Positions 45,700 to 51,045 of a stretch of DNA of 64,000 nt are shown piece by piece; the stretch's first letter is position 1; each line of letters starts with the position of its first letter. The notes under the pieces are model-generated. The model made no database searches and was not told the origin of the DNA. It saw nothing but the letters and a program-made list of their open reading frames with translations. The translations under genes and the position numbers were made by a program. The stretch comes from Salarchaeum sp. JOR-1 (lineage in GTDB: Archaea; Halobacteriota; Halobacteria; Halobacteriales; Halobacteriaceae): positions 1,054,001 through 1,118,000 of the forward strand of contig NZ_CP042241.1 of NCBI RefSeq assembly GCF_007833275.1, written 5' to 3'.

Positions 45700-45750
45700 C
45701 CCGACTTCTCACGTCGTTTCCCGCCGCACAGCCACCGGTATCGCGAAAAC

Positions 45751-45764
45751 GGCCTCGGCACTCA
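45751..45764. repeat. 14-bp direct repeat, left copy, at the edge of the low-GC segment
   Basis: GGCCTCGGCACTCA occurs here, 52 bases after the eIF1A stop, and again at 48982-48995. Nine bases CTATCCATA at 45776-45784 have their inverse TATGGATAG at 48967-48975. Confidence 0.5.
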
Positions 45765-45887
45765 CGACTCACAATCTATCCATAGCGAACGTGGGTGGCG
45801 CCGCTGTCAAGGCGACTTAGTCTAAGTCTCCGCCGCAAGCCGAGCACGCGCGTGTCCGCGGTTGTCCGCTCTGTCGGCAGGCCCCGC

Positions 45888-46442
45888 CTACAGCTGCACG
45901 ACGGACAAGTACGTTGAGACCCGACTCCCCCCGATACGGAGCGGACTGCCCTCGTACTGTTCGACCTCCAGGTGGAACGAGTCGCCGCTATCAACGTCGA
46001 GGACGGGGCGGCTCGCCTGGAGCTGCCAGTCGTTTGGGCCCTCTGCGAACGCCTGTGCGACCCCGACATTGCCGTTCCTCCTGACGGTGAACCAGTGGTT
46101 CGTTCCGGACGAGGGCTGGTCGCGCAAGAAGATACCGCCGGAGACCAGATAGTTCCCTGGCTCGGTGACCTCGATAGTGTAGTTCGAACTGCTCCATTGG
46201 CTTCGCTGGTCGATTTCGACGTTCTGGAACTCGATCGTCGTCGAGCTCCCAGACGGAACCGACTGGCCGTAGGCGTCCCAGACGGTCGTGCCGACGTCTG
46301 TCGCGACGACCGTATCGGCCTTCACGCGGATGGCGCTGACCGTCTCCGGAGAGATGTCGTCGCCGGAGTGCAAGCCAACGAACCAATCAAACAGAAGTAG
46401 AACTCTATTACCGCTGGACTGAGAATGGATCGTACCGATCAC
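45888..46442 (-). CDS. C1q/TNF-like jelly-roll protein (184 aa)
   Basis: From a GTG at 46442 the protein has a polar start, then a beta-rich domain. Strands end in GNYLVSGGIFLRDQPSS, HWFTVRRNGNVGVAQAFAEG, RPVLDVDSGDSFHLEVEQYE and a final STYLSVVQL, matching the C1q/TNF-like order (Y-x-V, NG turn, LxxGDxxxL, x-SxF/Y-L). There is no signal peptide, so export or a truncated N-terminus must be considered. A stop lies five codons before the GTG. GC and codon use are visibly lower than in the flanks. It is divergent from the CapA lipoprotein. Such domains occur in adhesins, virus fibres and surface proteins. Confidence 0.62.
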   Translation of the reverse strand: MIGTIHSQSSGNRVLLLFDWFVGLHSGDDISPETVSAIRVKADTVVATDVGTTVWDAYGQSVPSGSSTTIEFQNVEIDQRSQWSSSNYTIEVTEPGNYLVSGGIFLRDQPSSGTNHWFTVRRNGNVGVAQAFAEGPNDWQLQASRPVLDVDSGDSFHLEVEQYEGSPLRIGGSRVSTYLSVVQL

Positions 46443-46554
46443 AATAGTGTGCTGAACTTACCCTCTGTATGCCGCAGGCCGTTTGGATCGACTGGGTAGG
46501 GTTTCAACAGAGCCAGTCCACCACTTTTCTATCCAGGAGTCTTTTATCAGATCA

Positions 46555-48714
46555 ATGGATCAGTGGTCCCGTCGTGAATTCGTTCGGATTGCAACGGTCG
46601 GAGCGGGAGCGGGAATTGCCGGGTGTAACGCTCTTTCGCCGTCAGAGTCGACAGAAAACGATTTCCAGACAGAACAGACCGATCAAAAATCCGCAGGTAG
46701 CTCCGAGCCCATATCGGGACGAGTTGTCGACATAGAGGGCGAGGAGATCACCGGTGCGACGCTGAAAGCGATCGTTCCAGGGAGCGGATTCGTAGCCGAG
46801 ACAACCACTGATGAGCAAGGACGATTTGATGTAGTGGAGGTCGACGGACCAATCTGGCTTCGCGCAGCGAAAACGGATTTTATCGGACGGACTGTCGCTG
46901 TGGCTCCGGGAACAAGTCCTCGTATCAGACTCTCACCTCGTGAGGGAACAGTCGCGCTCAGTTTCGGCGGCGACGTAATGTTTGGCCGTCGGTTCTACGA
47001 GGACGACCACCCTCTCGAACCGCACTTCCAGATTCGACCTGATGACCGGATGGAATCACACCAGACGATACTACAGTACATTTCCCCACTGTTACAGGAC
47101 GCCGATCTCACGTCAGTGAATCTCGAAACACCGCTGACGACGACGGCATGGAGACACCCCTCCAAACGGTACCACTTCGTATCGAACCCGGACGCCGCAC
47201 CCGCGATGGCCGATGCCGGGATCGACTATGTCGCACTGGGGAACAACCACACGCTCGACGCGTTGACGCCGGGGTTGGATGAGACGTTACAGGCACTCTC
47301 TGCTGCAGGGATCGAATGGTCTGGTGCCGGCAGGTCCAGCACAGAAGCGTGGGAACCGACGTACTTCGAACGGCGGGGACTTACCATCGGGTTGGTCTCC
47401 TGTACTACCGTTACGGGCGACCAGTACGATATCGATTGGTCAGCCGACGACAACCAGTCCGAGACATATGCAGTGTCGGGGGACGACGTGGCCGGGACAC
47501 CCGACACTGAGCAACTGACGGTCTCCGGGAGTGTCGGGGTAGCAGCGGCGACTCGCGACCGAATATCTCGGACGGTATCAGAAGTCGATGCGAACGCGGA
47601 CGTAACCGTCGTCCAGATCCACGGCGGATCCGAGTATCAACAGGAACCGACCGACAAAATCAGACGCCTGACTGAAACGGCAAAGACAGCCGGTGCAGAC
47701 GTTGTCGTCAATCACCATCCACACGTAACCGGTGGAGTGGAACTGCAGGATGAGACACTGGTCGCGTGGACGCTTGGAAACCTCGTGTTCGACCAGGAGT
47801 TCTGGTCGACGTTTCCATCGTATATCTTGACGGTCCACGTCACTGACGATGGTATCACCAGAGCGTACGTTGACCCCCTTCTGATTGAAGGCTACGTTCC
47901 GAAAGGGGTGGTCGACAAACCGAGGACGTGGCAACTCCGGGAAACAGCCGCGTTGTCGTCGGATGAGTTCTCGCTTGACCACAACAGGCTGGAGTACGTC
48001 GCAAGAGACGAGACACCGGCCCGGACAGCAACCCGAACGCTGGACGGAGACGGGACAATATACACGCGGAACTCGGGATGGGTCAACCGAGTCATAGACG
48101 GGGCGGAATCTGTCGAACTGGGCCGTGACCTCCTTCCGACTGGAACGTTCGACGACCCTGATATCGACGACGGGCGGCACGAAGGTCCGTTATGGCGGTT
48201 CAGTCGTGGATCAGACTCCAACGGTCCGGAGTTCGGATACGACGGGAGTGGCGGGATTCAACTTTCCCGAACCGCAGACAACACCCAGCGGTCGATTCTG
48301 ACGACGGCCGAGCGTGTCCCCCTAACCGGGCGGACGACCCTTCTCGGCCAGTACCGCCACGAGACGGATACCCGACTGGAACTGCTCGTGCGATGGTACG
48401 AGTCGACCAGTGGTTCGGCACTCGATTCAGTGTCGATCGATCTCGACCGAACGACTGGCTGGGAACGTCTCGAACGGTCGCTGTCGACACCTGAGGAAGC
48501 GGCCTATGTCCGCCTTTATTTCCGGCTCTATCCTCCCGACGACGGAGAGAAACGTGTCGCCAACTTTGACAACATTCAGTTGGTCGAATGGACCGATTCA
48601 GTAACTAGCGGCGGCAAAAACTACGATTACCTCCGCGTACACGAGTCGTCAACCATCGAGTTTACATCGAGTAGCCTATCTGACGAGGCTATCTCGTGGG
48701 AAGCTCTCGATTAA
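46555..48714 (+). CDS. Tat lipoprotein with CapA (poly-gamma-glutamate type) metallophosphatase-like domain
   Basis: The 719-residue protein starts MDQWSRREFVRIATVGAGAGIAGC (Tat signal, lipobox Cys24). A carboxypeptidase-regulatory-like Ig domain follows (about 50-145). The CapA domain has SFGGDVMFGRRFYEDD, DADLTSVNLETPLTT, YVALGNNHTLDAL, VVQIHGGSEYQQEPTDKIRRL and NHHPHVTGGVELQDETLVAWTLGNLVFDQ (about 155-440). The C-terminal 200 residues are beta-rich and carbohydrate-binding-like (GTFDDPDIDDGRHEGPLWRFS). CapA proteins are needed for polyglutamate or capsule formation. ATG 46555 starts the Tat signal. GC is lower than in the surroundings. No ligase genes are adjacent. Confidence 0.82.
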   Translation: MDQWSRREFVRIATVGAGAGIAGCNALSPSESTENDFQTEQTDQKSAGSSEPISGRVVDIEGEEITGATLKAIVPGSGFVAETTTDEQGRFDVVEVDGPIWLRAAKTDFIGRTVAVAPGTSPRIRLSPREGTVALSFGGDVMFGRRFYEDDHPLEPHFQIRPDDRMESHQTILQYISPLLQDADLTSVNLETPLTTTAWRHPSKRYHFVSNPDAAPAMADAGIDYVALGNNHTLDALTPGLDETLQALSAAGIEWSGAGRSSTEAWEPTYFERRGLTIGLVSCTTVTGDQYDIDWSADDNQSETYAVSGDDVAGTPDTEQLTVSGSVGVAAATRDRISRTVSEVDANADVTVVQIHGGSEYQQEPTDKIRRLTETAKTAGADVVVNHHPHVTGGVELQDETLVAWTLGNLVFDQEFWSTFPSYILTVHVTDDGITRAYVDPLLIEGYVPKGVVDKPRTWQLRETAALSSDEFSLDHNRLEYVARDETPARTATRTLDGDGTIYTRNSGWVNRVIDGAESVELGRDLLPTGTFDDPDIDDGRHEGPLWRFSRGSDSNGPEFGYDGSGGIQLSRTADNTQRSILTTAERVPLTGRTTLLGQYRHETDTRLELLVRWYESTSGSALDSVSIDLDRTTGWERLERSLSTPEEAAYVRLYFRLYPPDDGEKRVANFDNIQLVEWTDSVTSGGKNYDYLRVHESSTIEFTSSSLSDEAISWEALD

Positions 48715-48876
48715 TCTATCTCGGCACGGAACGAGGGTGATATTGACGAACTTGGGCAAAAAATCGGTCAGTCGGTGTTTGACCTCTACGACCTCGAGGA
48801 CGAAGACGTACAGGAGCACGTAAACAGGTACAACGGTCAGCACGATTCCGTTCGGCCGCTAGACCCGCTGGAGTGA
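48715..48876 (+). pseudogene. C-terminal remnant of a larger protein, possibly a type IIG-like restriction-methylation enzyme
   Basis: After the capA stop the same frame stays open for 53 codons without a start: SISARNEGDIDELGQKIGQSVFDLYDLEDEDVQEHVNRYN..., ending RPLDPLE at TGA 48874. The segment DELxxxxxxxVFDLYDLEDEDVQEH resembles the end of Eco57I-like methylase-restriction proteins (DELVYxLYxLxxEE). The rest of the gene is missing. This is a family guess from a tail. Confidence 0.4.
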
Positions 48877-48981
48877 CCTCTGTTTACGTACTAGTTCACA
48901 ACAGTCTCACTCCACGAGCGCCGGAACACCGCTTTCGTGACGTTTGTGCACTTCTTTCCCGAAATGTATGGATAGAAAGCT

Positions 48982-48995
48982 GGCCTCGGCACTCA
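48982..48995. repeat. 14-bp direct repeat, right copy, at the edge of the low-GC segment
   Basis: GGCCTCGGCACTCA recurs here. Just before it, TATGGATAG (48967-48975) is the inverse of CTATCCATA at 45776-45784. Between 48877 and 49092 I see no gene I can support. Confidence 0.5.
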
Positions 48996-49092
48996 TAGGG
49001 CTCGTCGTCCCGCGGGTGCCAGCCCGGGTCGGAGCGGTCGCATCGTCATCGGCCGATTTTACGTACGGCTCGGGCGGTGTTAGGGCTTCGGC

Positions 49093-51045
49093 TCAGTCGT
49101 CGAGTGCGTTCGCGGATGCGTCAGCCTGCGTCTCCCAGAGGCTCGCGTACATCCCGCCGTCGGAGGTGAGGGCGTCGTGCGTCCCCATCTCCGCGATTCC
49201 GCCGTCGTCCATCACGACGATGCGGTCGGCGTCCTTGATCGTGGAGAGGCGGTGCGCGATGACGAACGCGGTTCGATCCTCGATGAGCGTCCGCAGGGAC
49301 TCCTGAATCAGCTCTTCGGTCTCGGTGTCCACGTCGGACGTGGCCTCGTCGAGCACGATGATAGCGGGGTCGTTCAGGAGCGCGCGGGCGATGCTGAGCC
49401 GCTGGCGCTGGCCGCCCGACAGTTTCACGCCGCGCTCGCCGATCTGGGTGTCGTACCCGTCCGGCAACTCCCGGATGAACCCGTGGGCTTCTGCGGCCTT
49501 CGCGGCGTCCACGATGCGCTGGTCGACGTCGTCCCCGCCGAGCGCGGTGAGGTCGCCGTACGCGATGTTCTCCGCGACCGTCCCCGAGAACAGGTAGGGG
49601 TTCTGCTCGACGACCCCGATGTGCTCGCGGAGGCCCTGGAGGTCGTACTCGCGCACGTCCGTCCCGTCCACGCGAACCGCGCCGGAATCGACGTCGTAGA
49701 ATCGCGGGACGAGCTTCACGAGCGTCGACTTCCCCGCGCCCGTCTCGCCCGCGAGCCCGACAGTCTCGCCCGGCGAGACGTCGAGGCTGACTCCCGAGAG
49801 AATCTCCTCGGTGGTGTCGTAACTGAAGCGGACGTCGTCGAACTCCACGTGGCCCTCCACGTCCTCCCGATGCGTCGGGTTCTCGGGGCTGGTGACGGTT
49901 GGTTCGTGGCCGAGCACGCCGAAGACGCGCTCCGCGCTCGACTTCGCGCGCTGATAGCGGTTCGCGGTCACGCCGATGCGGCGCATCGGCGCGTACAGCC
50001 TGCGGAGGTAGAGGAAGAACATCGTGAACGTCCCCGCGGTGATGGTGGACGCGATGGCGACCGGGCCGGCGCGGAACTCCCCGCGGATGACCATCTCGCC
50101 GCCGACGAGGAGGATGCCGACGAACGCCACGCCCGTGAGCACGCGGATGGTCGCGAAGAACGCGCGACGCAGCCGGATGGCCGCGACCTTCTCGTCGTGG
50201 TACGTCTCGGACTGGTCTGCGACCCGGTCGAGCTCGAAGTCGTAGCGGTCGAACGCCTTGATGACTTTCGCGCCCCCGATGTTGTTCTCCAGCCGGCTGT
50301 TCAGGCGCGCGACCGTCTCCCGGATGCGCTTGTACTTCGGTTCGATCCACGTCAGGAAGTAGACGCTCGAGACGCCGATGATGGGGACGGGCGCGAGCGC
50401 GATGACCGCGAGCGGCGGCGACACGTAGAACAAGACCACTCCGATACCGCCGACCGTCGCGACGACGCGGATTATCTGGCGGAGTTCGTCGTTCAGGAAC
50501 CGCTCCAGGCGATTGATGTCGTTGTTCAGAATCGACATCATCGCGCCCGTCTGATGGCGACTGAAGAAATCGAGGGAGAGCCGCTGCATGTGGTCGTACG
50601 TGTCGTTCCGGAGGTCTCGCTGAATCTTCTGAGCGGTCGACTGCAACAGGTACCGCGAGAGAAAGCGCGTTATCGACCGCACGACGTACGCGACCGCAGC
50701 GATGAGCGCGAGCCGCCGGAGAAGCGCGATTCGGGCGGCGTCGGTCACCAGCGGGTCGCTCGTCAACAGTCCGAGCTCCGCGAGCAGGCCGGGCTTGCCG
50801 CTTCCCGTGATGACGCGGTCGACCGCGGCGGCGACGATGAGCGGCGGCACGAGCCGAGCGACGCGCGTGACGAGCGACGTGAGAACTCCGACGGTCAGAC
50901 GTTTCCAGTACGACTTCGCGTACCGGAGTAACCCCAGCATGGGATGGCCGTCCACCTCCTCCCGGACGTTCTCGAACCCCCCGAGTTCGTCGGACACGAC
51001 AACAGGCTCGAACGCCCCGATGAAATCCCCTGCGGCCGCCCGCAC
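49093..51045 (-). CDS. ABC exporter, fused membrane and ATPase domains
   Basis: The 650-residue half-transporter is a type IV ABC exporter (lipid A exporter MsbA/multidrug type). The membrane domain (about residues 40-345) has six helices with RLTVGVLTSLVTRVARLVPPLIVAAAVDRV at its start. The nucleotide-binding domain (about 380-620) has Walker A GETGAGKS, signature LSGGQRQR, Walker B IIVLDEATSD and switch His in IAHRLST. It would dimerise to export a hydrophobic substrate. Start is GTG 51045 (VRAAAGDFIGAF), though a start at ATG 50940 (MLGLLRYAKS) is possible. It lies 13 bases after the Nif3-like gene, probably one operon. Confidence 0.92.
   Translation of the reverse strand: MRAAAGDFIGAFEPVVVSDELGGFENVREEVDGHPMLGLLRYAKSYWKRLTVGVLTSLVTRVARLVPPLIVAAAVDRVITGSGKPGLLAELGLLTSDPLVTDAARIALLRRLALIAAVAYVVRSITRFLSRYLLQSTAQKIQRDLRNDTYDHMQRLSLDFFSRHQTGAMMSILNNDINRLERFLNDELRQIIRVVATVGGIGVVLFYVSPPLAVIALAPVPIIGVSSVYFLTWIEPKYKRIRETVARLNSRLENNIGGAKVIKAFDRYDFELDRVADQSETYHDEKVAAIRLRRAFFATIRVLTGVAFVGILLVGGEMVIRGEFRAGPVAIASTITAGTFTMFFLYLRRLYAPMRRIGVTANRYQRAKSSAERVFGVLGHEPTVTSPENPTHREDVEGHVEFDDVRFSYDTTEEILSGVSLDVSPGETVGLAGETGAGKSTLVKLVPRFYDVDSGAVRVDGTDVREYDLQGLREHIGVVEQNPYLFSGTVAENIAYGDLTALGGDDVDQRIVDAAKAAEAHGFIRELPDGYDTQIGERGVKLSGGQRQRLSIARALLNDPAIIVLDEATSDVDTETEELIQESLRTLIEDRTAFVIAHRLSTIKDADRIVVMDDGGIAEMGTHDALTSDGGMYASLWETQADASANALDD

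Follow-up and report, generated by a model that had tools for sequence, protein, structure and literature searches.

A low-GC insert at the sR-tMet guide RNA gene of a haloarchaeon as a probable remnant of site-specific integrative elements

We found that a low-GC insert in a haloarchaeal genome of 2.52 Mb (G000) is bordered on both sides by a copy of the 3′ end of the gene for sR-tMet, a box C/D guide RNA. The insert lies in the 64,000-nt stretch of DNA that was analysed here (the window), and it very probably derives, as a remnant, from site-specific integrative elements whose attachment site (attB) is this 3′ end. In our best reading, it is a decayed integration product in which the gene for CapA is the only one that appears intact. 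The original prediction, made from the letters of the window, had taken the segment for a mobile cassette between direct repeats. This is supported by the different insert of the sister species G001 and by the recurrence of the two halves of the segment elsewhere. The prediction missed the sRNA 3′ end, the conserved element ends, the dedicated integrase clade and the truncated gene.

Results

The insert and its boundaries

The insert has a GC content of 0.57-0.58 (46-49 kb), compared with 0.65-0.75 in most of the rest of the window, in agreement with the drop in GC that had been noticed before. The 14-bp direct repeat described around it, GGCCTCGGCACTCA, was found in both places (45751-45764 and 48982-48995). 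The 13-mer GGCCTCGGYACTC has two exact copies in the whole genome, and both are the repeat copies of the insert. The inverted 9-mers reported just inside the repeat were likewise present (45776-45784 and 48967-48975) and proved to be the conserved inner arms of the element ends. As had been supposed, no recombinase is left: the insert holds no integrase gene, and no member of the integrase clade linked to this site was identified in the genome of the window at E<=1e-80. Because the integrase is missing, we file the insert as a remnant and not as an autonomous element; related elements with the same type of ends do encode an integrase. The features are listed in Table 1.

Table 1. Features of the insert and its attachment site (window coordinates)
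Feature	Position	Strand	Basis or remark
Outer attachment core, 13 bp, GGCCTCGGCACTC (then A)	45751..45763	+	duplicate of the sR-tMet 3′ end
Conserved left element end (A)CGACTCACAATCTATCCATAG, inner arm CTATCCATA	45764..45785	+	24 elements aligned
C1q-like fibre ORF, 5′-truncated	45888..46442	-	other haloarchaea have a 270-aa protein whose C-terminal part matches residues 22-184
Fusion point of C1q cassette (left, G079-like) and CapA cassette (right, G123/G034-like)	46370..46372	.	identity switch
CapA / PGA_cap lipoprotein, 719 aa from ATG	46555..48714	+	PGA_cap match; relatives in G123/G034
Orphan 48-aa C-terminal gene tail	48730..48876	+	within segment common to G123 and G034
Conserved right element end CGAAATGTATGGATAGAAAGCT, inner arm TATGGATAG	48960..48981	+	22 elements aligned
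sR-tMet box C/D guide RNA gene, intact	48982..49054	-	RF02163; inner core copy formed by the 14 nt at its 3′ terminus (48982-48995)

The repeat is the 3′ end of the sR-tMet gene

The Rfam model of sR-tMet (RF02163) matched the minus strand of the window at 49054-48982 over the full model (1-72), scoring 66.1 bits where the gathering score is 50. The 14-bp repeat corresponds to the 3′ end of this gene, from the final nucleotides of the guide through box D to the terminal stem, and its displaced copy lies at 45751. As is characteristic of tyrosine-integrase elements, the 3′ end of the target is repeated at both ends of the insert and the target gene itself is intact. A passage of a review (PMC4033218, citing Joardar et al. 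2011) describes sR-tMet as the guide for Cm34 formation in haloarchaeal tRNA.

The association is not confined to the window. We identified sR-tMet above the threshold and adjoining the core in all 16 occupied loci that were scanned. In two sets of loci that were read, the sRNA directly followed the right core in 14 of 20 and in 17 of 21, and several of the loci that lack it there run on into another element. Two other kinds of target were considered and rejected. A tRNA gene does not fit, as ARAGORN finds only one tRNA-Val, at 10.4 kb. A transposon with target-site duplication was dropped since what is duplicated never varies: it is the 13-bp core fixed by the sRNA.

The element ends are conserved across Halobacteria

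We searched 391 Halobacteria genomes for both ends together with the core, allowing up to three mismatches and using the reversed pattern as the control. The left end (core-CGACTCACAATCTATCCATAG) was identified in 60 genomes from 33 genera and the right end (AAATGTATGGATAGAAAGCT-core) in 52 genomes from 30 genera; the reversed pattern had no match in the 391 genomes. Either end was present in 88 genomes, and with the integrase clade added the number rises to 116 (about 30%). Since the patterns that contain the inverted 9-mers recur and the reversed control is zero, these 9-mers are not a product of chance. Other genera of the window's family carry the same left and right ends, and most columns of the left end are identical in 22-24 of the 24 aligned elements. 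The exact right end gave 21 matches in a collection of 84,980 species, all of them haloarchaeal by name save one MAG titled 'uncultured archaeon'. A search of viral contigs with both ends gave no match and no free attP.

Another right end, TCTACCGTCAAAAATRGC before the core, is also common and was observed at L044 (G003), L132, L138, L198 and L201. This right end occurs beside several left-end types, and other right ends are present in some arrays (G003, G005, G013 and G079); the arrays seem to swap their left and right halves. Some element ends are degraded (G265 and G005).

The same site is differently occupied in the sister species

G001, the only other genome of the genus that was compared, carries an unrelated 41.6-kb insert between exactly the same two bases (G001:C1:510234-551879, loci L014-L016; about 51% GC). 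Its flanks are 91-96% identical to the window up to the core (92-94% on the left and 96% on the sRNA side). Such different occupancy of one site in a close relative is typical of tyrosine-integrase elements, and the sister's element indeed encodes a tyrosine integrase (L014:12469-13401), which matched PF00589 (6e-22) and PF13495 (4e-8). It also encodes homologues of DndA, DndC, DndD, DndE and of PbeA, PbeC and PbeD. The likeness to Dnd/Pbe phosphorothioation defence islands is that of the sister's occupant only, and the insert in the window carries none of these genes.

Because both genomes of the genus (2/2) are occupied, no strict empty site was seen for the host of the window. In G022 and G024, which belong to another genus, 445 bp at 92% identity run straight into the sRNA core, and this stretch looks as an unoccupied site should. 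The comparison with a sister that had been proposed as a check was run, with the result that the segment is not carried by all relatives and the repeat is not random.

A clade of tyrosine integrases is linked to the core

Tyrosine integrases of one clade (about 53% identity or more) were identified in 43 of the 391 genomes. The core lay within the locus read in 38 of these 43, the reversed core in none, and in the loci of the other five the core was missing from the stretch read. It is often found about 600 bp upstream of the integrase gene, with several distinct left-end sequences. Window-type ends accompany the integrases of six elements (G006, G107, G036, G022, G092 and G392), 86-93% identical to that of G006, and the end type of the sister accompanies an integrase that is 59% identical to the G006 protein. 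As expected of tyrosine recombinases, Phage_integrase and SAM-like domains are present in the G001 integrase, and R, K, HxxR and Y are kept in the G006 integrase (L046). When the latter was aligned to archaeal XerA, D (IRGD) was found to replace the second catalytic H (LLGH), a feature of the clade (L014 and L046). The integrase gene of G392 (L108) contains an in-frame TAA; here an element is caught losing its integrase.

In the phage collection, the integrase has relatives at only about 25% identity, and no haloarchaeal virus is among these matches. One Natrinema plasmid encodes a 65% relative, and in the genome locus that matches it (L189) there is no core within 10 kb. In G003, host and element cores differ: position 9 has the host allele in the sRNA and a different one in the outer copies; this pattern would fit strand exchange within the first eight bases of the core.

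Elements are stacked in tandem and carry diverse cargo

Adjoining element ends that share one core were found in G140, G069, G036, G034, G307 and G274. In G069, the array runs through two cassettes into the left end of a sister-type element, and arrays end at sR-tMet. Small elements of 0.9-5 kb have both ends and one or two genes, with diverse cargo (subtilase, S66 peptidase, TrkH/TrkA, heliorhodopsin, GH5 hydrolase and PIN/VapB-like proteins). A PAS kinase with a KaiC-like protein, DUF6414 and DUF6884 proteins, DNA methylases, and GmrSD and Mrr-type restriction enzymes were also identified as cargo. Related cargo is found at like sites in other families with 84-97% DNA identity. The heliorhodopsin gene is the cargo of a 1.15-kb cassette in G069 (L120), and a similar gene flanks the insert of G015 on its left (L054).

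The insert is a chimera of two cassettes

Positions 45750-46370 are 97.4% identical to a C1q-fibre cassette of G079, which belongs to another family, and positions 46372-48994 are 95.7% identical to a CapA cassette of G123 and 90.2-90.8% identical to that of G034 (families f2 and f4). The identity to G079 stops at 46370 and that to G123 and G034 starts at 46372, which marks the insert as a chimera in which two cassettes were fused. The G079 cassette itself lies at sR-tMet, where its two cores are separated by 1,635 bp; its product is a fibre-like protein of 270 aa. Between G000 and G079 the sRNA gene, a conserved host gene, reaches only 88% identity, far below that of the cargo. These identities indicate that the cassettes have spread recently between families.

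Because the insert is chimeric, the 184-aa ORF has only the C-terminal part of the fibre (residues 22-184), and its start (residues 1-21, about 22 codons) comes from unrelated upstream DNA. The full-length form has 270 aa, and the truncated fibre is probably non-functional. The C1q-like character that had been assigned to the 184-aa protein held as a resemblance, which is real but weak, in a gene that has lost its 5′ part: the ORF reached 14.1 bits against PF00386 (C1q), below the cut-off of 23.7, and the profile of the fibre family gave only three matches in PDB, to C1q-related factors (E 0.27-0.31). AlphaFold on the single 184-aa sequence gave a pLDDT of 37, and this model was set aside. The full-length fibre has an N-terminal segment NTPxxGATDWHxPLNDNFERLD and weakly matched PHROG 13989, a virion structural protein (E=1.6e-4). 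This match hints at the virus-related island that had also been considered, and does no more than hint at it.

The reading of the larger gene as a Tat CapA lipoprotein proved correct. CapA matched PGA_cap (PF09587) with 228.5 bits against a cut-off of 27, and it carries a Tat-like RR motif and a lipobox at the N-terminus, followed by a CarboxypepD_reg and the PGA_cap domain. Proteins of the CapA (PGA_cap) type are linked to the synthesis of polyglutamate capsules, and the protein of the insert presumably acts at the cell surface. The 48-aa remnant had no match in Pfam or PADLOC.

Discussion

We propose that the tyrosine integrase of related elements would recombine the 13-bp core in a circular attP, laid out as TATGGATAG, 6 bp, the 14-bp repeat, 11 bp and CTATCCATA, with the identical 13-bp sequence that ends the sRNA gene. 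The integrated DNA would then end between two cores, and the sRNA would keep a complete 3′ end (remaining guide sequence, box D and terminal stem), so that the guide RNA would not be lost to the host. Tandem stacks of elements would arise from further integrations at this core. In the lineage of the window, an internal deletion may have joined two stacked cassettes, one with the C1q-tipped fibre gene and one with CapA, truncating the fibre gene and leaving no integrase behind. We infer from the sequence comparisons that it is this integrase which performs the recombination and that the cassettes were fused when part of a tandem array was deleted.

It is possible, if rather doubtful, that the short cassettes without an integrase are live, being moved in trans by the integrase of another element, with sR-tMet as an integron-like platform. 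Of the 88 genomes with ends, 73 have no integrase relative at the cut-off used, and the small two-ended elements with their diverse cargo, the tandem arrays and the closely related cargo in other families all point in this direction. However, decay of larger elements would leave short ones too, transfer by homologous recombination through the conserved flanks could also have moved them, circular forms were not seen, and the copy in the window is plainly a deletion product.

Haloarchaea recombine readily, and together with the degraded ends in G265 and G005 this favours a spread of the segment by homologous recombination of flanking DNA, with the core marking only an ancient integration. We consider this very unlikely, given that the high identity to G079 starts at the core while the sRNA is much less alike, that different elements lie at the same bases in sisters, and that carriers differ in the chromosomal genes next to the site. 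An origin as a provirus or virus-derived island, with the C1q-tipped fibre as a virion protein and the rest lost, is improbable as well. The N-terminal segment of the fibre and its PHROG match suggest such an origin, but the match is weak, no capsid, portal or packaging gene was recognized in the elements examined, the family-assigned cargo consists mostly of host-like or defence genes, and the phage collection holds only distant relatives of the integrase.

The preferred reading, that of integrative elements at sR-tMet, places the insert near the genomic islands (Islander) that tyrosine integrases insert at tRNA/tmRNA genes (PMC4383910; archaeal review PMC8371274). Shared features are a tyrosine integrase, a short core at the 3′ end of a small-RNA gene, a target restored on one side with a displaced copy on the other, and tandem reuse of the site; the difference is that the target here is a box C/D guide RNA gene. 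The targets given in the archaeal review (PMC8371274) are tRNA genes, protein-coding genes and intergenic regions; the terms snoRNA and sRNA never occur in it. The SNJ2-type integrases that it describes, classical haloarchaeal tyrosine integrases, also combine SAM-like and Phage_integrase domains, a 13-bp core and the 3′ end of an RNA gene, but SNJ2 is reported at the 3′ (amino-acid attachment) end of a tRNA gene. No guide-RNA gene serving as an attachment site was found in open-access papers; because the search was confined to these, with subscription papers outside it, the novelty is provisional.

Integrons, including archaeal ones (PMC9668308, which names no haloarchaea), are similar in that one- to few-gene cassettes lie in tandem at one locus and most genomes are without an adjacent integrase. 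They differ in that here the integrase gene is inside the elements and not at a platform next to attI, and in that the insertion point is a conserved RNA gene. As a speculative extension, sR-tMet might be the hub of a class-wide, integron-like exchange in haloarchaea, in which dedicated integrases would act in trans on small cassettes without an integrase, so that genes for surface, transport, toxin-antitoxin and defence functions would be stacked and exchanged between families.

Surveys of haloarchaeal integration sites have centred on tRNA genes, and sR-tMet gives a defined locus at which genes that move horizontally, including defence islands, can be sought. For haloarchaeal genetics, the site supplies a ready-made attB/attP pair. 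It also prompts the question whether integration alters sR-tMet expression and the Cm34 modification of elongator tRNA-Met.

Two minor observations concern the surroundings of the site. The ABC exporter gene adjoining sR-tMet (window 49093-51045) is present in G000, G015 and G020 and absent from the sister G001. In G022, a full element with the window's end type and an integrase (L110, G022:C1:905042-912563) lies 500 kb from the sR-tMet of that genome (393 kb), with the right end of a second element on its left, and represents either a secondary site or a moved array.
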